Shown: positions 33,662 through 46,578 of the stretch, piece after piece
How the letters are laid out: the number at the start of each line of letters is the position of its first letter
How positions within the stretch are numbered: position 1 is the stretch's first letter
From: an uncultured Actinomycetes bacterium
GTDB lineage: Bacteria; Actinomycetota; Actinomycetes; Mycobacteriales; Nakamurellaceae
Length of the DNA: 64,000 nucleotides
Assembly (NCBI GenBank): GCA_937926105.1
Contig: CALANS010000211.1
Location: 124,001 to 188,000, forward strand
Direction: 5' to 3'
The notes under the pieces: model-generated
The model's database searches: none
What the model was told of the DNA's origin: nothing
What the model saw: the letters and a program-made list of their open reading frames with translations, nothing else
Translations under genes and position numbers: made by a program

Positions 33662-36079
<2,418 letters not shown>

Positions 36080-38607: not shown

Positions 38608-39042
38608 TCAGGCCTGCTGGGCCATGAACGCCTCCGGCCCTTGCTCGGCGGCAACGGGGTCCATGTAGCCGAACTCCAGGATGTTGCCGTCCGGATCGGT
38701 CAGTTGCCTCTGGTACATGAAGCCGAGATCCGTCGGCGGCTGGGCCTCCGAGCCGCCGGCCGCAAGGCCGTCGGACATGGTCGCGTCCACTGCCTCTCGA
38801 CTGTCCAGGAAGATGGCGGTCGCGCACGACACGGACGAGGTCGGGTCTCCGATCGGGAGTGTGGTGAACGTCTGGAAGAACTCGCGGACCAAGATCATGA
38901 AGTAGTTGTGGCCCTCATCGACCACGACGCACGCGGCATTGTGATCGGTGAAGACCGGGTTGATCCGAAAGCCGACAGCTGTGTAAAACGCCTTGGCGCG
39001 GTCCAGATCGGTCACCGGCAGGTTGACGAACATGGGGCCCAT
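38608..39042 (-). CDS. VOC-superfamily (glyoxalase/bleomycin-resistance-like) protein
   Basis: The 144-residue protein shows two beta-alpha-beta-beta-beta modules: MFVNLPVTDLDRAKAFYTAV with FRINPVFTDHNAACVVVDEG, then LGFMYQRQLTDPDGNILEFG with the terminal metal Glu. It may be a metal-dependent lyase, dioxygenase or binding protein. ATG 39042 follows a GGAGA site at good spacing; upstream in-frame codons are rejected. First gene of the operon with the HxlR regulator. Confidence 0.85.
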   Translation of the reverse strand: MGPMFVNLPVTDLDRAKAFYTAVGFRINPVFTDHNAACVVVDEGHNYFMILVREFFQTFTTLPIGDPTSSVSCATAIFLDSREAVDATMSDGLAAGGSEAQPPTDLGFMYQRQLTDPDGNILEFGYMDPVAAEQGPEAFMAQQA

Positions 39043-39083
39043 GATGAGTCTCCATTTCGGGTTGGGGTGCGGTCGGACTGACA

Positions 39084-39109
39084 CTTGCAAAAAACAAGCA
39101 GACTGTCAA
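39084..39109 (-). promoter_or_regulatory. Promoter/operator region of the VOC-HxlR operon
   Basis: On the minus strand a perfect -35 TTGACA (39104-39109) is followed by an A/T-rich segment. There CTTG and CAAG arms (39084-39087, 39095-39098) flank a run of six A/T, which stands out in this GC-rich genome. An HxlR regulator could bind it. The -10 is weak. Confidence 0.45.
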
Positions 39110-39240: not shown

Positions 39241-39268
39241 GAATGACATAATGTACATTATCGGCTAA
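39241..39268 (-). other. dif-like XerCD site; left junction of the tandem element
   Basis: Read on the minus strand, the site has a left arm TTAGCCGATAA, a 6-bp centre TGTACA and a right arm TTATGTCATTC. This closely resembles the actinobacterial dif consensus, and the E. coli dif layout XerC arm-centre-XerD arm. The right arm (39241-39251) is chromosomal. The left arm (39258-39268) belongs to the inserted element and contains its rep stop codon. Core 39251-39264 recurs at 42506 and 45761. This is the only one of the three junctions with two good arms, so it is probably the functional dif of this chromosome. Confidence 0.85.
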
Positions 39269-40407
39269 CGCGGAAGCGCCGACAACTCACCAGATGACGA
39301 CGGAGACCGAGCACCCACCATCGACAGAACCTCGGTGCCCTCCTCAAAGTCCAAGCGCCCCACCGCTTGCCGCGAAAGGTCGTTGTTCCACAAGGCCGGC
39401 GCGGTAACACCGAGCTCGTCCATCACATCGCGGTGACGGCGTTCGCTCCGCCCGGCCTGACGGCCGAACCCAAACGACTCCAACATCAGCTCGCCCAACA
39501 ATTTCGCTCCCACAGCTCGGGTCACACGACCCTCAACCATGGCCCGCTGTACAACCTGAACGGCGTTAACCGGGCCCGTCACCTCAGTGCCCATAGCTGA
39601 CCACTTCCAACGATCCAGCGCGAGCCTGTCCACGGCCACTGGGTCCAAATCCGTCACGTGACGAATACCTGCGCGCTGCAACCAACCTTTCCGGACCTCG
39701 GCCTCCCACCGCAACGAACCCTCGGGCGCTCCCTTGTCGGCGTAGGCCTGGTGCTGGTCGTACAAGCGCACGCCCCCAGCACCGGAACCGACGAACAGCG
39801 TTTGCGCGTCACCCCGGCCCGGATCGTTATAGGTGAACGAGCGCCGAGCCCACGGCCGACGCAGAGGCCCCAGACCCTCGACGTAAAGCGCCGGCGACGT
39901 GACCGCCCGGAAATCGCGAGCCACGTCTAACCGAGTTACCCGCGCCTGCTCCAACGACTCAGCCGGCCGCACCAGCTCGCCGACCGCCAGCCACATCACC
40001 GTGACCGCCGCCGGCAGCATCCGCGGGTCGAGCAGCTCGCACCCGTACGGGTCCGCAAACCTCGCAGGGTTGCACTCGGCCTTCCCCCACGGCCTTCCGT
40101 TGATCGTCGTCACGCCGACCATTACCGCCGGGCCATCACCGTCGGAGACCGGCACCCGCTTCGAGTACGCGTGCTGGCCGCTCTCATACCGGTACGTGTG
40201 GCTATCCCAGGCACCCGGCGGCGCGTGCTCAGCAACCGGGAACGACATCGACAGGCGGTCGATCCCCACCCCCGGCAGGCCCACGGGCCGTGGCCAATTT
40301 GGCCAAGTTTCCCCTTCTGTTAGATAGGGGAAACCCCCGCCGGCCCCCGCCGGCAACTCGCGCGATCGCGCACCACTGCTACTAGCAGAAGCCGCGAGTA
40401 GGTCCAC
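39265..40407 (-). CDS. Replication-initiator-like protein of the element, copy 1
   Basis: A 380-residue protein that resembles the Rep_trans-type replication initiation factors of filamentous phages and plasmids. The pattern seen is GIDRLSMSFPV near 48, ARVTRLDVARDF at 155-166, TLFVGS then GVRLYDQHQAYA at 203-222, and SLRWEAEVRK at 231-240. It would open or nick an origin for rolling-circle-type replication. The first ~45 residues are low-complexity and overlie an inverted-repeat cluster, so the true start may be GTG 40284 or 40269 instead of GTG 40407. Its TAG lies inside the attachment site. Family assignment is by eye. Confidence 0.7.
   Translation of the reverse strand: MDLLAASASSSGARSRELPAGAGGGFPYLTEGETWPNWPRPVGLPGVGIDRLSMSFPVAEHAPPGAWDSHTYRYESGQHAYSKRVPVSDGDGPAVMVGVTTINGRPWGKAECNPARFADPYGCELLDPRMLPAAVTVMWLAVGELVRPAESLEQARVTRLDVARDFRAVTSPALYVEGLGPLRRPWARRSFTYNDPGRGDAQTLFVGSGAGGVRLYDQHQAYADKGAPEGSLRWEAEVRKGWLQRAGIRHVTDLDPVAVDRLALDRWKWSAMGTEVTGPVNAVQVVQRAMVEGRVTRAVGAKLLGELMLESFGFGRQAGRSERRHRDVMDELGVTAPALWNNDLSRQAVGRLDFEEGTEVLSMVGARSPSSSGELSALPR
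40292..40388. repeat. Inverted-repeat cluster at the rep start, copy 1 (candidate origin/operator)
   Basis: In about 100 bp there are GGCCAA-T-TTGGCC (40292-40304) and GTTTCCCC/GGGGAAAC with a 12-nt loop (40307-40334). A perfect tandem of CCCCCGCCGG (40334-40353), the palindrome GCGCGATCGCGC (40360-40371) and CTGCTA-C-TAGCAG (40376-40388) follow. Such density suggests a replication origin or copy-control site rather than coding constraint. A second copy lies 3255 bp downstream (43547-43643). Confidence 0.65.
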
Positions 40408-40446
40408 ACGGCAAAGCTACCAGGCAACTCTCACATTCTGCGACAA

Positions 40447-40875
40447 TCAGCCGGTGTGTCCGCGCAACCTCGCCGGACCGTTGACCGCGTTCTTGATAAC
40501 CAGCGGCACTCGGACGTCATCGGACCGAATAGCGCGGGCGTACTCGCCAACATCCACACTCACACCCGGGAAGCTGTAGTCATCCGGGTGGGCGCCGAAG
40601 CTCTCGCGGAAGCCCTTGATCTTGCGGTAGATGGTGGCGTCCGAGTAGCCCAGCCTGCGCAAACCGTCGAAGCCGCCTTCAAGTTTCCACACCAGCCAGA
40701 AGCCGACCCGATCCATCACGACCTGGAGAGCGGCACGCCGAGCCCCAGTCTCGATGCCATCCCAGAGCGACTCGATACGGGCCGCGCCAGCCAACGAACT
40801 CGCCATGCCGTACCCATCACGCGTGGGCATCTTCTTCGACCGGAAATCGACCGGCTCCACCAATTCGGACGTCAT
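40447..40875 (-). CDS. Putative HTH DNA-binding protein of the element, copy 1
   Basis: The 142-residue protein is unrecognised at family level. Residues about 45-95 look like a helix-turn-helix: VVMDRVGFWLVWKLEGGFDG followed by LRRLGYSDATIYRKIKGFRE, with the turn and an Arg/Lys-rich recognition helix. The C-terminal YSFPGVSVDVGEYARAI is of unknown role. It precedes rep by 39 bp on the same strand and so may be its repressor or copy-number regulator. TAGTCT six bases before ATG 40875 could be a -10 for a leaderless transcript. Confidence 0.6.
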   Translation of the reverse strand: MTSELVEPVDFRSKKMPTRDGYGMASSLAGAARIESLWDGIETGARRAALQVVMDRVGFWLVWKLEGGFDGLRRLGYSDATIYRKIKGFRESFGAHPDDYSFPGVSVDVGEYARAIRSDDVRVPLVIKNAVNGPARLRGHTG

Positions 40876-40974
40876 AGCCTGAGACTACCCCGAGCAGCCG
40901 ACGAGACCCTGGACCCCGTTTCGCGTTTCCGCAGGTCCCAGCCGTCTGCTGGTGTTTGCACCCCCGTGTTACAA

Positions 40975-41008
40975 GCCCGGCGGTGCCGCAGCGGGACGCC
41001 CGCCGGGC
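40975..41008. repeat. 9-bp-stem inverted repeat in the 40876-41259 gap, copy 1
   Basis: GCCCGGCGG (40975-40983) pairs with CCGCCGGGC (41000-41008) across 16 nt. It lies in a 384-bp non-coding stretch between the HTH gene (minus) and the small HTH gene (plus), which also holds several other short GC-rich stems before the ribosome site at 41248. It could be a bidirectional regulatory or terminator structure. The same occurs at 44230-44263. Confidence 0.45.
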
Positions 41009-41259
41009 ATCCGTAGCTACTCGCCGACGCACTCACCTCGCCGTCCCGTACCACCGGCCGACCCACCGTCAAGGCCGCTCCGGGCCGAGCCCTCCGGGTG
41101 AATCCGGCCACCGACCCCGGCCGGGCGGCCGTGAGCATCCCGGATCCACCCGCAGCGCTGACCCTGCGGGCCTTGACCGCGGGCCCCGCGGCCGGAGGTA
41201 CGGGTGCCCCGCCGAGGAGGGCATCCGCCCCCCTCGCGGGACCCAACCAAGGAGGCATC

Positions 41260-41511
41260 GTGAACGACGCACTACGCCGAGCTCACAAGCACGCCAACAT
41301 CGCGGCGGCCGCACTCCGGCAGGCTGTTCGGGAGGCGAGAGCCGCCGGCGACAGCTGGACGGAGATCGCCGGCGCGCTGGGCATCCCGAGCCTGCTCGCC
41401 CAACAGCGGTTCGGCACCGGCGAGGAACGCGACCAGGCCCACGAGCTGCGCCTAGCGCGCAAGCTCCGCCGACGCCGCGCTACCAGCCGGCCATCGGGCG
41501 CAACGGGCTAG
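41260..41511 (+). CDS. Small HTH protein of the element, copy 1
   Basis: An 83-residue basic protein (VNDALRRAHKHANIAAAALR) with a helix-turn-helix at about 30-52: AGDSWTEIAGALGIPSLLAQ, QRFG. The W-x-EI-x-ALG-x-xxxx-QQRF pattern is common in short actinobacterial DNA-binding proteins of plasmids and chromosomes. A strong AAGGAGG at 41248-41254 sets GTG 41260. Its stop shares the CTAG at 41508-41511 with the convergent zinc-ribbon gene. Confidence 0.75.
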   Translation: MNDALRRAHKHANIAAAALRQAVREARAAGDSWTEIAGALGIPSLLAQQRFGTGEERDQAHELRLARKLRRRRATSRPSGATG

Positions 41512-41699
41512 CCACGACCGGGCAACGGCGACAGGCCCAAAGCCGGACGGCCGAGCGCCATTCGTCGCGCACACTCCGAGCACACCTTGCGTGTCTGCCA
41601 GAGACGCAGGCCGGCGAAGTAGCACCGCTCGCACTGCAACCGGTTCCACCGGCCGCGCCAATACAGCGGATAGTCATCGCTCACTCGTCTGGTCACCAT
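41508..41699 (-). CDS. Small zinc-ribbon protein B of the element, copy 1
   Basis: The 63-residue product has two Cys pairs, LQCERCYFAG and KVCSECARRM, spaced as a zinc ribbon. Function is unknown; such proteins often bind DNA or RNA. ATG 41699 is the likely start (MVTRRVSDDYPLYWRGRWNR), with GTG 41684 as an alternative and a further ATG at 41714. It overlaps the upstream zinc-ribbon gene by about 26 bp and meets the small HTH gene stop-to-stop. Confidence 0.6.
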   Translation of the reverse strand: MVTRRVSDDYPLYWRGRWNRLQCERCYFAGLRLWQTRKVCSECARRMALGRPALGLSPLPGRG

Positions 41700-41901
41700 C
41701 GCCAACCACCTCAATCACAGACCACTCGAGGCCGCAGCCGGCGCAGCGCCAACCCCGAACCACCGCGTTCAACCCGGCCGGGCCGCCCGCCACCACGCAC
41801 GGAACCGGCTCCGAGACCCACCAACTACTCCCCCCACACGACGCGCAGACGCCCGAGCCGGCAGGAGCCGGACCGGGACCAGCAACCGCATCAACCGTCA
41901 C
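41674..41901 (-). CDS. Small zinc-ribbon protein A of the element, copy 1
   Basis: A 75-residue protein with Cys pairs VCASCGG and WRCAGCGLEW, about 28 residues apart, predicting a zinc ribbon with a beta-hairpin between. It is the first gene of a two-gene minus-strand unit with zinc-ribbon B. No family is recognised. The 129-bp spacer to the divergent plus-strand gene at 42031 holds the large hairpin. Confidence 0.6.
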   Translation of the reverse strand: MTVDAVAGPGPAPAGSGVCASCGGSSWWVSEPVPCVVAGGPAGLNAVVRGWRCAGCGLEWSVIEVVGDGDQTSER

Positions 41902-41935
41902 ACCCCGAAGCTACGGACCCGCTCCGACGGCGCCC

Positions 41936-41987
41936 GCCAGTCCGAGGGGCGGGCCCGCTCCGCTTTCGGCCCGGCCCTCGGACTGGC
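41936..41987. repeat. 20-bp-stem hairpin of the element, copy 1
   Basis: Arm 41936-41955 and arm 41968-41987 are complementary at 19 of 20 positions and enclose a 12-nt loop. In this compact element it is the longest inverted repeat, lying between divergent genes. In ssDNA replicons such hairpins serve as a single-strand origin, a packaging signal or a folded attachment site. It is present identically at 45191-45242. Confidence 0.75.
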
Positions 41988-42030
41988 GACCACCCAGCGG
42001 GACCGGGCCCCCCAGCACGCCGGAGAAGCC

Positions 42031-42552
42031 ATGCCAGCAGAACTGCGACCCATCGAGCCGCCCAGCAACCACCCGACAGCCCTACGAGCATTCGCGGTCA
42101 CTCAGGACGGGCAATCCATCGGCACCATTGCGCACGTCCACTCGAAACGACCGAACGGCGCCAGCCACCGCAACGACTGGTACGCGGACCTGCCCGCCGA
42201 AGACACCTCCCCACCGTTCAAACGGCCGTGGGACACCAGACGCGCCGCCGTCGAGGCCCTGCAATTCCGCTACCACAAACGGATGACACCACCACCCGCG
42301 CCGGCCCCAGACCACACCCTGACCAGCATCCAGGCCGCCCGAGAGGAAGCCGGCGCCGCCGCCGCCCTATGGCTAGCAGCAGCCGTCACCGTCCACCACC
42401 TGACCGAGCTGGAAGCCGCCCGCCGCGTCAACCCGGCATCCCTCTGGAACGAGATACACCGCATCATCCAGTGGCTCGACGCCGCCACAAAGGACAAACC
42501 AGACGATGTACATTATCGGCTAACGCGGAAGCGCCGACAACTCACCAGATGA
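42031..42552 (+). CDS. Unknown protein of the element whose 3' end crosses attP, copy 1
   Basis: The 173-residue product is not recognised. The N-terminal half (TALRAFAVTQDGQSIGTIAH, NDWYADLPAEDTSPPFKRPW) looks like a small beta domain. The C-terminal half is helical (LWLAAAVTVHHLTELEAARR, NEIHRIIQWLDAATK). ATG 42031 has GGAG nine bases upstream. The frame runs through the core at 42506 into the next element, ending LTRKRRQLTR, and overlaps the convergent rep of copy 2 by 33 bp. This is the C-terminus expected in the circular form. Confidence 0.65.
   Translation: MPAELRPIEPPSNHPTALRAFAVTQDGQSIGTIAHVHSKRPNGASHRNDWYADLPAEDTSPPFKRPWDTRRAAVEALQFRYHKRMTPPPAPAPDHTLTSIQAAREEAGAAAALWLAAAVTVHHLTELEAARRVNPASLWNEIHRIIQWLDAATKDKPDDVHYRLTRKRRQLTR
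42496..42523 (-). other. Element-element junction (attP-equivalent)
   Basis: Minus-strand reading gives the same good XerC-like arm TTAGCCGATAA and centre TGTACA, but the other arm (42496-42506) is degenerate, TCGTCTGGTTT instead of TTATGTCA. This junction equals the attachment site of the circular element. It therefore carries one good Xer arm and one poor one, a pattern reminiscent of TLC-phi of Vibrio. Confidence 0.75.
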
Positions 42553-43662
42553 CGACGGAGACCGAGCACCCACCATCGACAGAACCTCGGTGCCCTCCTC
42601 AAAGTCCAAGCGCCCCACCGCTTGCCGCGAAAGGTCGTTGTTCCACAAGGCCGGCGCGGTAACACCGAGCTCGTCCATCACATCGCGGTGACGGCGTTCG
42701 CTCCGCCCGGCCTGACGGCCGAACCCAAACGACTCCAACATCAGCTCGCCCAACAATTTCGCTCCCACAGCTCGGGTCACACGACCCTCAACCATGGCCC
42801 GCTGTACAACCTGAACGGCGTTAACCGGGCCCGTCACCTCAGTGCCCATAGCTGACCACTTCCAACGATCCAGCGCGAGCCTGTCCACGGCCACTGGGTC
42901 CAAATCCGTCACGTGACGAATACCTGCGCGCTGCAACCAACCTTTCCGGACCTCGGCCTCCCACCGCAACGAACCCTCGGGCGCTCCCTTGTCGGCGTAG
43001 GCCTGGTGCTGGTCGTACAAGCGCACGCCCCCAGCACCGGAACCGACGAACAGCGTTTGCGCGTCACCCCGGCCCGGATCGTTATAGGTGAACGAGCGCC
43101 GAGCCCACGGCCGACGCAGAGGCCCCAGACCCTCGACGTAAAGCGCCGGCGACGTGACCGCCCGGAAATCGCGAGCCACGTCTAACCGAGTTACCCGCGC
43201 CTGCTCCAACGACTCAGCCGGCCGCACCAGCTCGCCGACCGCCAGCCACATCACCGTGACCGCCGCCGGCAGCATCCGCGGGTCGAGCAGCTCGCACCCG
43301 TACGGGTCCGCAAACCTCGCAGGGTTGCACTCGGCCTTCCCCCACGGCCTTCCGTTGATCGTCGTCACGCCGACCATTACCGCCGGGCCATCACCGTCGG
43401 AGACCGGCACCCGCTTCGAGTACGCGTGCTGGCCGCTCTCATACCGGTACGTGTGGCTATCCCAGGCACCCGGCGGCGCGTGCTCAGCAACCGGGAACGA
43501 CATCGACAGGCGGTCGATCCCCACCCCCGGCAGGCCCACGGGCCGTGGCCAATTTGGCCAAGTTTCCCCTTCTGTTAGATAGGGGAAACCCCCGCCGGCC
43601 CCCGCCGGCAACTCGCGCGATCGCGCACCACTGCTACTAGCAGAAGCCGCGAGTAGGTCCAC
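42520..43662 (-). CDS. Replication-initiator-like protein of the element, copy 2
   Basis: The 380-residue product is identical to that of copy 1 (39265-40407), including the ARVTRLDVARDF, GVRLYDQHQAYA and SLRWEAEVRK motifs. The start has the same uncertainty; internal alternatives are GTG 43539 and 43524. Its TAG lies in the middle attachment site and its 3' end overlaps the convergent plus-strand gene of copy 1. Having two intact initiators and two origin-like regions in tandem would let replication begin in one unit and end in the next. Confidence 0.7.
   Translation of the reverse strand: MDLLAASASSSGARSRELPAGAGGGFPYLTEGETWPNWPRPVGLPGVGIDRLSMSFPVAEHAPPGAWDSHTYRYESGQHAYSKRVPVSDGDGPAVMVGVTTINGRPWGKAECNPARFADPYGCELLDPRMLPAAVTVMWLAVGELVRPAESLEQARVTRLDVARDFRAVTSPALYVEGLGPLRRPWARRSFTYNDPGRGDAQTLFVGSGAGGVRLYDQHQAYADKGAPEGSLRWEAEVRKGWLQRAGIRHVTDLDPVAVDRLALDRWKWSAMGTEVTGPVNAVQVVQRAMVEGRVTRAVGAKLLGELMLESFGFGRQAGRSERRHRDVMDELGVTAPALWNNDLSRQAVGRLDFEEGTEVLSMVGARSPSSSGELSALPR
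43547..43643. repeat. Inverted-repeat cluster at the rep start, copy 2
   Basis: Same set of inverted repeats as 40292-40388, offset by 3255 bp, overlying the low-complexity N-terminal codons of the second rep. Confidence 0.65.
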
Positions 43663-43701
43663 ACGGCAAAGCTACCAGGCAACTCTCACATTCTGCGACA
43701 A

Positions 43702-44130
43702 TCAGCCGGTGTGTCCGCGCAACCTCGCCGGACCGTTGACCGCGTTCTTGATAACCAGCGGCACTCGGACGTCATCGGACCGAATAGCGCGGGCGTACTC
43801 GCCAACATCCACACTCACACCCGGGAAGCTGTAGTCATCCGGGTGGGCGCCGAAGCTCTCGCGGAAGCCCTTGATCTTGCGGTAGATGGTGGCGTCCGAG
43901 TAGCCCAGCCTGCGCAAACCGTCGAAGCCGCCTTCAAGTTTCCACACCAGCCAGAAGCCGACCCGATCCATCACGACCTGGAGAGCGGCACGCCGAGCCC
44001 CAGTCTCGATGCCATCCCAGAGCGACTCGATACGGGCCGCGCCAGCCAACGAACTCGCCATGCCGTACCCATCACGCGTGGGCATCTTCTTCGACCGGAA
44101 ATCGACCGGCTCCACCAATTCGGACGTCAT
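43702..44130 (-). CDS. Putative HTH DNA-binding protein of the element, copy 2
   Basis: Identical in sequence to the 142-residue protein at 40447-40875, with the same HTH-like stretch LRRLGYSDATIYRKIKGFRE. It lies 39 bp upstream of the second rep gene, conserving the regulator-initiator pair. No independent evidence beyond copy 1. Confidence 0.6.
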   Translation of the reverse strand: MTSELVEPVDFRSKKMPTRDGYGMASSLAGAARIESLWDGIETGARRAALQVVMDRVGFWLVWKLEGGFDGLRRLGYSDATIYRKIKGFRESFGAHPDDYSFPGVSVDVGEYARAIRSDDVRVPLVIKNAVNGPARLRGHTG

Positions 44131-44229
44131 AGCCTGAGACTACCCCGAGCAGCCGACGAGACCCTGGACCCCGTTTCGCGTTTCCGCAGGTCCCAGCCGT
44201 CTGCTGGTGTTTGCACCCCCGTGTTACAA

Positions 44230-44263
44230 GCCCGGCGGTGCCGCAGCGGGACGCCCGCCGGGC
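44230..44263. repeat. 9-bp-stem inverted repeat, copy 2
   Basis: Counterpart of 40975-41008 in the 44131-44514 non-coding stretch of copy 2. Confidence 0.45.
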
Positions 44264-44514
44264 ATCCGTAGCTACTCGCCGACGCACTCACCTCGCCGTC
44301 CCGTACCACCGGCCGACCCACCGTCAAGGCCGCTCCGGGCCGAGCCCTCCGGGTGAATCCGGCCACCGACCCCGGCCGGGCGGCCGTGAGCATCCCGGAT
44401 CCACCCGCAGCGCTGACCCTGCGGGCCTTGACCGCGGGCCCCGCGGCCGGAGGTACGGGTGCCCCGCCGAGGAGGGCATCCGCCCCCCTCGCGGGACCCA
44501 ACCAAGGAGGCATC

Positions 44515-44766
44515 GTGAACGACGCACTACGCCGAGCTCACAAGCACGCCAACATCGCGGCGGCCGCACTCCGGCAGGCTGTTCGGGAGGCGAGAGCCGC
44601 CGGCGACAGCTGGACGGAGATCGCCGGCGCGCTGGGCATCCCGAGCCTGCTCGCCCAACAGCGGTTCGGCACCGGCGAGGAACGCGACCAGGCCCACGAG
44701 CTGCGCCTAGCGCGCAAGCTCCGCCGACGCCGCGCTACCAGCCGGCCATCGGGCGCAACGGGCTAG
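44515..44766 (+). CDS. Small HTH protein of the element, copy 2
   Basis: Identical to the 83-residue protein at 41260-41511, with its strong ribosome site at 44503-44509. Its stop overlaps the convergent zinc-ribbon gene through the CTAG at 44763-44766. Confidence 0.75.
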   Translation: MNDALRRAHKHANIAAAALRQAVREARAAGDSWTEIAGALGIPSLLAQQRFGTGEERDQAHELRLARKLRRRRATSRPSGATG

Positions 44767-44954
44767 CCACGACCGGGCAACGGCGACAGGCCCAAAGCCG
44801 GACGGCCGAGCGCCATTCGTCGCGCACACTCCGAGCACACCTTGCGTGTCTGCCAGAGACGCAGGCCGGCGAAGTAGCACCGCTCGCACTGCAACCGGTT
44901 CCACCGGCCGCGCCAATACAGCGGATAGTCATCGCTCACTCGTCTGGTCACCAT
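44763..44954 (-). CDS. Small zinc-ribbon protein B of the element, copy 2
   Basis: Identical to 41508-41699: two Cys pairs (LQCERCYFAG, KVCSECARRM) in a 63-residue protein. Alternative starts are GTG 44939 and ATG 44969. Confidence 0.6.
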   Translation of the reverse strand: MVTRRVSDDYPLYWRGRWNRLQCERCYFAGLRLWQTRKVCSECARRMALGRPALGLSPLPGRG

Positions 44955-45156
44955 CGCCAACCACCTCAATCACAGACCACTCGAGGCCGCAGCCGGCGCA
45001 GCGCCAACCCCGAACCACCGCGTTCAACCCGGCCGGGCCGCCCGCCACCACGCACGGAACCGGCTCCGAGACCCACCAACTACTCCCCCCACACGACGCG
45101 CAGACGCCCGAGCCGGCAGGAGCCGGACCGGGACCAGCAACCGCATCAACCGTCAC
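44929..45156 (-). CDS. Small zinc-ribbon protein A of the element, copy 2
   Basis: Identical to 41674-41901: 75 residues with Cys pairs VCASCGG and WRCAGCGLEW. Overlaps zinc-ribbon B as in copy 1. Confidence 0.6.
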   Translation of the reverse strand: MTVDAVAGPGPAPAGSGVCASCGGSSWWVSEPVPCVVAGGPAGLNAVVRGWRCAGCGLEWSVIEVVGDGDQTSER

Positions 45157-45190
45157 ACCCCGAAGCTACGGACCCGCTCCGACGGCGCCC

Positions 45191-45242
45191 GCCAGTCCGA
45201 GGGGCGGGCCCGCTCCGCTTTCGGCCCGGCCCTCGGACTGGC
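45191..45242. repeat. 20-bp-stem hairpin of the element, copy 2
   Basis: Counterpart of 41936-41987: 19 of 20 paired positions with a 12-nt loop, between the divergent genes at 45156 and 45286. Confidence 0.75.
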
Positions 45243-45285
45243 GACCACCCAGCGGGACCGGGCCCCCCAGCACGCCGGAGAAGCC

Positions 45286-45852
45286 ATGCCAGCAGAACTG
45301 CGACCCATCGAGCCGCCCAGCAACCACCCGACAGCCCTACGAGCATTCGCGGTCACTCAGGACGGGCAATCCATCGGCACCATTGCGCACGTCCACTCGA
45401 AACGACCGAACGGCGCCAGCCACCGCAACGACTGGTACGCGGACCTGCCCGCCGAAGACACCTCCCCACCGTTCAAACGGCCGTGGGACACCAGACGCGC
45501 CGCCGTCGAGGCCCTGCAATTCCGCTACCACAAACGGATGACACCACCACCCGCGCCGGCCCCAGACCACACCCTGACCAGCATCCAGGCCGCCCGAGAG
45601 GAAGCCGGCGCCGCCGCCGCCCTATGGCTAGCAGCAGCCGTCACCGTCCACCACCTGACCGAGCTGGAAGCCGCCCGCCGCGTCAACCCGGCATCCCTCT
45701 GGAACGAGATACACCGCATCATCCAGTGGCTCGACGCCGCCACAAAGGACAAACCAGACGATGTACATTATCGGATCGTCAGCAGGGCACGGCGAGCCGC
45801 GATGGCACCCCAATCTGCCCCATCCCGAATCGACACCCGAATCGGCACTTGA
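45286..45852 (+). CDS. Unknown element protein with a chromosomally encoded C-terminus, copy 2
   Basis: The first 163 codons are identical to 42031-42552. After the core at 45761 the frame continues into chromosomal DNA, replacing the native tail LTRKRRQLTR by a 25-residue tail beginning IVSRARRAAMAPQ (188 residues in total). Integration thus creates an element-host fusion at the right end. Whether the tail is tolerated is unknown. Confidence 0.6.
   Translation: MPAELRPIEPPSNHPTALRAFAVTQDGQSIGTIAHVHSKRPNGASHRNDWYADLPAEDTSPPFKRPWDTRRAAVEALQFRYHKRMTPPPAPAPDHTLTSIQAAREEAGAAAALWLAAAVTVHHLTELEAARRVNPASLWNEIHRIIQWLDAATKDKPDDVHYRIVSRARRAAMAPQSAPSRIDTRIGT
45751..45778 (-). other. Right junction of the element with the chromosome
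   Basis: On the minus strand the XerC-like arm is now chromosomal, CGATCCGATAA, the centre is TGTACA, and the other arm is the element's degenerate TCGTCTGGTTT. Joining this arm to the left chromosomal half (39241-39257) predicts the empty site: arms CGATCCGATAA and TTATGTCATTC around TGTACA. That is a plausible ancestral dif. Confidence 0.75.
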
Positions 45853-46140: not shown

Positions 46141-46578
46141 TCACTCCTTGATCGACACCGACACCGGCGTCGCAAGCTCCACCGTCCGGGACACCGTGCA
46201 CAGCCGGTCGTGTGATCGTTGCACGGCATCGGGCAGCACCGCTCGCGCGGCGTCACCGCCTTCCCCTGCCGGGAACGTCACCGCGAAGGTCAGCTCGACG
46301 TTCGCGAGATGGCTGCCGTTCTCGTCGCGGACCTTATCGGCCTGGACCGTCATCGAGAAGGCGTCTGGCTGGGCACGCCGGCCGGTGATCAGGTCGACGT
46401 CGATTCCGCTGCATCCGCCGATCGCCGTCAGCAGCAACTCGACCGGCGTGAAGTCGGCGTCGTCACCGCTGCCGAACTCGAGCGCGCCGCCCCGCGCGTT
46501 GACGGCGCGGAACCGCCCGGGTGCCGTCCGGGTGATGGTGACCGATCGGTGGGCATCTGCTGTCGTCATGACGTTCAC
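46141..46578 (-). CDS. OsmC-family protein
   Basis: The 145-residue protein shows the OsmC/Ohr pattern: FGSGDDADFTPVELLLTAIG with GGCSGIDVDLITGRRA carrying the first redox Cys, and RSHDRLCTVSRTVELATPVS with the second. These cysteines would reduce organic hydroperoxides. An atypical position of the first Cys (GGCS) places it in the general OsmC group rather than canonical Ohr. It is the last gene before the mobile element on this side. Confidence 0.88.
   Translation of the reverse strand: MNVMTTADAHRSVTITRTAPGRFRAVNARGGALEFGSGDDADFTPVELLLTAIGGCSGIDVDLITGRRAQPDAFSMTVQADKVRDENGSHLANVELTFAVTFPAGEGGDAARAVLPDAVQRSHDRLCTVSRTVELATPVSVSIKE

Follow-up and report, generated by a model that had tools for sequence, protein, structure and literature searches.

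What are two identical units of 3255 bp, placed in tandem at a site resembling dif, doing in the chromosome of an actinobacterium without a recognisable integrase? The units lie in a 64,000-nucleotide stretch (hereafter the window) of contig CALANS010000211.1 from an uncultured Actinomycetes bacterium. We conclude that each unit is very probably an integrative mobile element exploiting Xer (IMEX) of the TLCphi type, in a host in or near the Nakamurella family. The class assignment follows from the layout of the attachment site and the gene content, both of which fit the published account of TLCphi. The initial annotation, made from the sequence of the window, had interpreted the locus as a compact replicon integrated at dif, and the identity of dif, the call of a replication initiator (Rep) and the lack of an integrase, a Zot protein or a membrane protein support that interpretation.

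The units lie head to tail, are identical letter for letter and have a G+C content of 68.1% (70.3% in the window; Table 1). A 14-bp core, ATGTACATTATCGG, was confirmed at 39251, 42506 and 45761 (the last copy ending at 45774), spaced by 3255 bp; identity continues for exactly 14 bp past unit 2 and for 0 bp to the left of unit 1. With up to two mismatches, the palindromic core motif ATAATGTACATTAT occurred within the window at the three core positions only, and 100 shuffles gave a mean of 0.00. The claim that every gene is duplicated identically holds for open reading frames (ORFs) inside the unit but not for those crossing the core, whose copies differ. The dif-like layout proposed at the core is correct but has to be read on the minus strand, where the XerC arm of the left junction occupies 39258-39268, the centre 39252-39257 and the XerD arm 39241-39251. 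On this strand, the window-left junction reads GTTAGCCGATAA-TGTACA-TTATGTCATTCC, the junction between the units GTTAGCCGATAA-TGTACA-TCGTCTGGTTT and the window-right junction GACGATCCGATAA-TGTACA-TCGTCTGGTTT; the host flanks joined without the element give GACGATCCGATAA-TGTACA-TTATGTCATTCC. The element thus contains a dif mimic at its internal junction (CCGATAATGTACAT plus TCGTCTGG), the putative attP, in which the XerC arm and centre are dif-like and the XerD arm is divergent or absent. Scanning 300 bp on each side of the core for a second site of the CTXphi type revealed one XerC-like half site with one mismatch (42534, plus strand) and no paired inverted site in the unit. As 1.06 half-site matches are expected in shuffles, the lone half site is close to the chance number and a folded attP of the CTXphi type is unsupported.

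Comparative evidence identifies the insertion site as the chromosomal dif of the host, because its arms recur in related genomes, it is single in most of the relatives that match, it agrees with a published Frankia site and its flanks are found around dif in an element-free relative. The affiliation of the host follows from its RapZ-like protein (assigned by eye), which is 79% identical to those of a Nakamurella metagenome-assembled genome (G001) and of the element-free G015, and 68-75% identical to those of the other 15 family genomes. The dif arms, CCGATAA...TTATGTCA, are present in one copy in 13 of the 16 other Nakamurella-family genomes. When the pattern CCGATAATGTACATTATGTCA was searched with up to two mismatches, 14 of the 17 genomes in the family of G001 matched, 13 of them once and G001 twice, and three had no match; 9 of the 10 mismatches fell in the 6-bp centre. 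At the level of the order, 115 of 200 genomes matched and 85 did not, G001 and G046 having two matches each. The arms in the window also match the dif suggested for Frankia alni, CACGCCGATAATGCACATTATGTCAAGT (Kono et al. 2011, PMC3025954), a source that, in the portion available, states that no actinobacterial dif was confirmed at that time. In G015, dif has homologues of prs and osmC on its XerC side and of the TIGR03083 and xylan genes on its XerD side, as in the window (these labels and that of the UvrA-like gene below were assigned by eye). The core is short, 14 bp, and an ordinary tandem duplication could in principle have a border that resembles dif by chance. The absence of matches in the shuffles, the flanking of dif by window genes on either side in G015, and two further Rep ends that adjoin dif in G001 make this explanation extremely improbable.

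Rep itself gave no Pfam match at E up to 1, while 16 of its 61 relatives matched PF02486 at that threshold (best 1.4e-4; unrelated families reach 0.004-0.01 with one or two members). Its predicted model shares the fold of the Rep_trans (pT181/RstA-like) initiators, and a search of a viral fold library with the model led to inovirus initiators. The profile matches of the relatives and the predicted structure back the initiator call, Rep being, as modelled, a remote member of the Rep_trans/pT181/inovirus superfamily. The stop codon of the gene abuts the XerC arm, and a 339-residue form starting at 40284 is recorded as P0001.

Upstream of Rep, a candidate origin consists of TTTCCCC-TATCTAACAGAA-GGGGAAA and, after it, another small hairpin. 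Hairpin pairs with the same TCTAACAGA loop and partly different stems are also found in a second Rep-bearing contig from G001 (C130, locus L106), in the environmental contig L003 and in the Acidimicrobiaceae locus L002. Folded as DNA, the four origins gave z scores of -4.1, -4.2, -4.6 and -2.3, and shuffled sequences folded as well as the origin in 8 of 200 cases for L002 and in 0 of 200 for each of the other three. As the origin of L003 lies outside its rep gene, the conservation is not a by-product of Rep coding. A further locus, L110, has an isolated CTAACAGA without the two-hairpin setting. By analogy with rolling-circle origins, we infer that the TCTAACAGA loop is the nick region.

The absence of a recognisable coat, Zot or integrase gene, as initially described, was borne out. 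No integrase was found by Pfam in 11 ORFs of the unit nor by PHROGs and NCBIfam in seven, and no match to Zot (the pI morphogenesis ATPase) or a coat family appeared among the tested ORFs (the same seven, plus four more by Pfam). No relaxase was recognised in the Pfam, PHROGs and NCBIfam scans. None of the 46 unit ORFs of at least 30 residues had a membrane-like stretch, defined as a 19-residue mean hydropathy > 1.6 (4 of 76 in L003 and 4 of 21 in L106:1-2200). More broadly, scanning the element proteins with Pfam, PHROGs, NCBIfam and PADLOC gave nothing usable, and a PDB sequence search nothing sensible.

These features suggest how the array may have formed. A 3255-bp circle would carry an attP composed of the XerC arm and the dif centre, without the XerD arm, and host XerC and XerD would recombine it with the chromosomal dif. 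One junction would then be a complete dif, made of the XerC arm of the element and the XerD arm of the host, and the other a half site; the rebuilt dif should preserve chromosome dimer resolution. Since the rebuilt dif could accept another copy, the next circle would enter there, which would explain the head-to-tail array and its attP-type internal junction. Rep would nick the TCTAACAGA loop of the two-hairpin origin, and monomer circles would be released as rolling-circle replication proceeds between consecutive origin copies. As the element has no Zot, coat or membrane protein, virions are not expected from it alone.

The exact identity of the two units is also what an assembler would write if one integrated copy and reads from circular forms, or a collapsed longer array, were rendered as two copies. 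We consider such an artefact rather unlikely. The protein database has the 142-residue protein of the unit on seven contigs, the 173-residue cluster crossing the junction as two sequences on four contigs (longest 656,438 bp) and the 339-residue Rep as two sequences on two contigs (longest 85,541 bp), entries that may come from one sample. Moreover, the sequence contains the attP-type junction and the two host junctions, and the interpretation as an IMEX survives regardless of the copy number.

The remaining features of the unit are putative. The initial labels of regulators and zinc-ribbon proteins come from reading helix-turn-helix (HTH)-like stretches and CxxC pairs by eye. The 142-residue protein has seven database entries, counting itself, which we aligned; its predicted model is weak (pLDDT 63), and its family had no match in the 17 family genomes in a search run with no positive control. 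The HTH ORFs of the window and L003 gave no BLASTP alignment. A protein database search with the 173-residue ORF recovered its own entry alone, and its matches to Cas3_HD, FhuF and phrog_9801 were rejected as weak (E 0.017-0.099; Cas3_HD and FhuF below cut-offs). A 21-bp inverted repeat may be a terminator, a single-strand origin or a packaging signal.

Table 1. Coordinates of the tandem units, their junctions, their genes and the host flanks in the window
Feature	Positions	Strand	Remarks
Complete dif at the XerD-side end of the array	39241..39268	-	XerC arm TTAGCCGATAA (element), centre TGTACA, XerD arm TTATGTCATTC (host)
Unit 1 of the element, 3255 bp	39251..42505		Identical to unit 2
Unit 2 of the element, 3255 bp	42506..45760		Identical to unit 1
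Internal junction, putative attP	42496..42523	-	XerC arm TTAGCCGATAA, centre TGTACA, TCGTCTGGTTT where the XerD arm is expected
XerC-side end of the array	45751..45778	-	Host XerC arm CGATCCGATAA, centre TGTACA, TCGTCTGGTTT of the element
Replication initiator (Rep), 380-residue ORF	39265..40407	-	Rep_trans/pT181/inovirus G2P superfamily, as modelled; second copy 42520-43662
Candidate double-strand origin, two adjacent hairpins	40285..40345	-	First loop holds TCTAACAGA; second copy +3255
142-residue conserved protein, helical, HTH-like core, putative regulator	40447..40875	-	Second copy +3255
83-residue ORF, HTH-like stretch by eye	41262..41511	+	No Pfam/PHROGs/NCBIfam family; second copy +3255
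68-residue ORF, two CxxC pairs, zinc-ribbon-like by eye	41508..41714	-	No Pfam/PHROGs/NCBIfam family; second copy +3255
75-residue ORF, two CxxC pairs, zinc-ribbon-like by eye	41674..41901	-	No Pfam/PHROGs/NCBIfam family; second copy +3255
21-bp inverted repeat, 12-nt loop, very stable hairpin	41935..41988		DNA fold z -5.8; second copy +3255
173-residue ORF crossing the core	42031..42552	+	Last copy 45286-45852 (188 residues) terminates in host sequence
Host flank, XerD side: glyoxalase-like gene (by eye)	38608..39090	-	Counterpart 89% identical, next to dif on Nakamurella contig C133
Host flank, XerC side: OsmC-like gene (by eye)	46141..46578	-	Counterpart 67% identical in G015, likewise on the XerC side of dif

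Relatives of the element were found at dif in G001, where each of the two dif matches comes right after a Rep end. On contig C130, a Rep 56% identical to that of the window over residues 22-366 is followed by dif about 350 bp beyond. On contig C133, the 17 terminal codons, on the minus strand, read RLDWESGTERVEEADG-stop, recognised by eye as the C-terminal motif of the Rep family, and the contig continues into the left-flank genes of the window (glyoxalase-like 89%, HxlR-type 84% and UvrA-like 77% over 104 residues). The orientation of Rep relative to dif is the same in the window, C130 and C133. Because it is the XerD side of dif that appears on each of the two G001 contigs, the bin may contain two strains or the chromosome may have two dif sites. 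Between Rep and dif, L106 encodes a small protein with one membrane-like span (1850-2086) whose Pfam matches are weak and implausible; the element on C130 may be a fuller phage than that of the window.

A possible helper is suggested by L003, a 5862-bp environmental IMG/VR contig whose Rep is 52% identical to that of the window. Its Zot-like gene matched phrog_20922 (1.9e-35) and phrog_197 (9.3e-9) and was 40.5-44.3% identical over 75% to Orf8 of the Propionibacterium freudenreichii phage B5 in 13 phage records; searched as a single sequence against IMG/VR, it found itself alone. By sequence, the initiator family of the window thus also serves a filamentous-phage-like genome, and the link to L003 consists of the initiator family and the origin, those only. 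In L003 (1-5862) the Zot-like gene is followed by Rep, the same order as Orf8 and Orf9 of B5, and the L003 Rep family profile misses the Rep of B5. Most likely, the element depends for its spread on a filamentous phage like L003 or B5, as its satellite, or else it stays a virion-less replicon.

The latter alternative, a small rolling-circle plasmid parked at dif and spread by mobilisation, transformation or vertical descent with no phage helper, is a serious one to which we give somewhat less than even chances. The unit has no virion gene or membrane protein, and the longest contig is 2-4 kb for 25 of 69 Rep relatives and <2 kb for 20 more (short contigs are common in metagenomes). The distant relative L002 lies in an integrase-bearing tRNA element where the L003 Zot had no match. 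On the other hand, 72,556 plasmid records contained no protein or DNA match, no relaxase was recognised, the unit has its initiator family and origin in common with the Zot-bearing L003, and inovirus initiators came back from the viral fold library. What it has in common with L003 also speaks for a filamentous prophage in decay, once an inovirus with Zot and coat genes and since become immobile without them. This we regard as very unlikely, as the two units are identical, the Rep frame is open over 380 residues and an attP-type junction is present; in addition, for a second pair of relatives, P0010 (of Rep) and P0075 (of the 142-residue protein), the longest contig measures 3401 bp in either case, which suggests, though the two may be on different contigs, a standing compact form.

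Several observations weigh against a TLCphi-type IMEX with a phage helper. The array copy number of two may be an assembly product. Among nine element-free relatives (L097-L105), only G015 had window genes on both sides of dif; G018 and G007 had prs alone, on the XerC side, G010 only a 36% identical UvrA-like gene, and five none of the tested window genes. The UvrA-like gene of the window (33662-36079) and that of C133 occupy the XerD side of dif, that of G015 (L097 6801-9131) the XerC side; material around it may have crossed dif, perhaps via paired dif sites. The Rep family is rare, being found in 1 of 17 genomes of the family, 2 of 397 of the order and 5 of 394 of the class, G001 in each (at most five candidates per genome scored in the latter two). 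The expectation that homologues are always at dif held for the Rep ends on C130 and C133 but not for more distant ones: no dif was found near six distant Rep loci in five genomes (L107-L112) in the stretches examined (up to 19,901 bp each), and L002 (4904-11144), whose Rep is 32% identical and whose origin loop is the same, is a 6-kb element flanked by 60-bp repeats that are 90% alike, one of which overlaps tRNA-Ala. L002 has an HTH_17 excisionase-like gene and encodes a tyrosine integrase of its own (PF00589, 3.7e-31), so homologues elsewhere with an own integrase, which the initial annotation named as grounds for refutation, do exist, for distant kin only. L002 combines the same replication module with a different integration route. 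As for the helper, the L003 Zot-like gene scored 0.0054 against Pfam Zot, below the cut-off, and had no match in the 17 family genomes, a weak negative run without a positive control. The Reps of B5 and Philemon fall outside the Rep family profile of the window, and the XerC arm plus centre was not found in L003, B5 or Philemon, so dif use by the proposed helper lineage lacks support. A XerD profile matched all 17 family genomes, but unspecifically, since all 14 controls, archaea included, also matched. Apart from this, scanning IMG/VR for short patterns found the 15-mer of XerC arm plus centre in 23 stretches and the origin 16-mer in 45; in the stretches examined, no Rep family member was found by profile except in L003, and neither pattern alone is therefore a marker.

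A broader scenario can be offered tentatively, and we hold it doubtful: the dif of the Nakamurella family may be a docking site for a guild of 3-kb elements that are satellites of filamentous phages of Actinobacteria, with a new initiator family, a two-hairpin origin shared with the helper and an own activator of XerD. The activator is proposed because attP lacks the XerD arm; the 173- or the 142-residue protein would be the candidate, comparable to XafT of TLCphi. We found no report in the open literature, to which our search extended, of an IMEX or Xer-dependent element, or of a rolling-circle satellite of a filamentous phage, in Actinobacteria. If true, the interpretation of the element as an IMEX means that Xer hijacking of the TLCphi type reaches into the high-GC Gram-positives, provides a testable actinobacterial dif and points to a helper-satellite pair based on an initiator family that Pfam misses in the window protein.

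IMEX members related to these elements include phages of Yersinia and Xanthomonas. The hosts named in the available portions of earlier accounts are Vibrio, Neisseria, Enterobacter and Legionella (PMC4246890, PMC5357621, PMC9765430). Inovirus hosts reported earlier among Gram-positives number two according to the part available of PMC10061712, one being P. freudenreichii, and the main text of PMC6813254 is without the terms Xer, Actinobact and satellite. With pT181-type initiators (RepDE), from a different host, the Rep of the window shares 14% identity. Bifilivirus B5 (Paulinoviridae) is a filamentous phage lineage that, like the element, has an actinobacterial host, but B5 and L003 carry pI/Zot, B5 also structural genes, and no dif-like site was found in either. 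LME-1, GGI and other IMEX, as excerpted, likewise integrate at dif through host Xer and leave one intact and one altered dif (PMC9765430); they have other hosts, no tandem array is mentioned in those excerpts, and GGI, at 57 kb, is larger (PMC5357621). The 173-residue ORF parallels XacF1, where the accessible description places attP inside a gene altered upon integration (PMC5666396).

In its arrays the window resembles RS1/CTXphi, which combine a rolling-circle initiator, no integrase and head-to-tail units at dif, RS1 itself forming tandem units there. CTXphi differs in that its attP is described as one strand folded on itself so as to bring together two dif-like sites in inverted orientation (PMC4246890, in part), while the window unit has no paired inverted site within 300 bp of the core. 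TLCphi, a satellite filamentous phage of Vibrio cholerae that we compared by description, differs in its host; the window unit has a tandem array and no XafT-like activator was identified in it (XafT is mentioned in the available part of PMC9765430). In the published excerpts, TLCphi has no virion genes and integrates by host XerD first and then XerC, independently of FtsK, through an attP whose XerC arm and centre hardly differ from those of dif and whose XerD arm is degenerate (PMC4246890, PMC5357621). Reversibility also characterises integration of this type. It is thus in the use of dif, the type of attP, an own replication module and the lack of morphogenesis and structural genes that the actinobacterial unit and TLCphi, as so described, agree.

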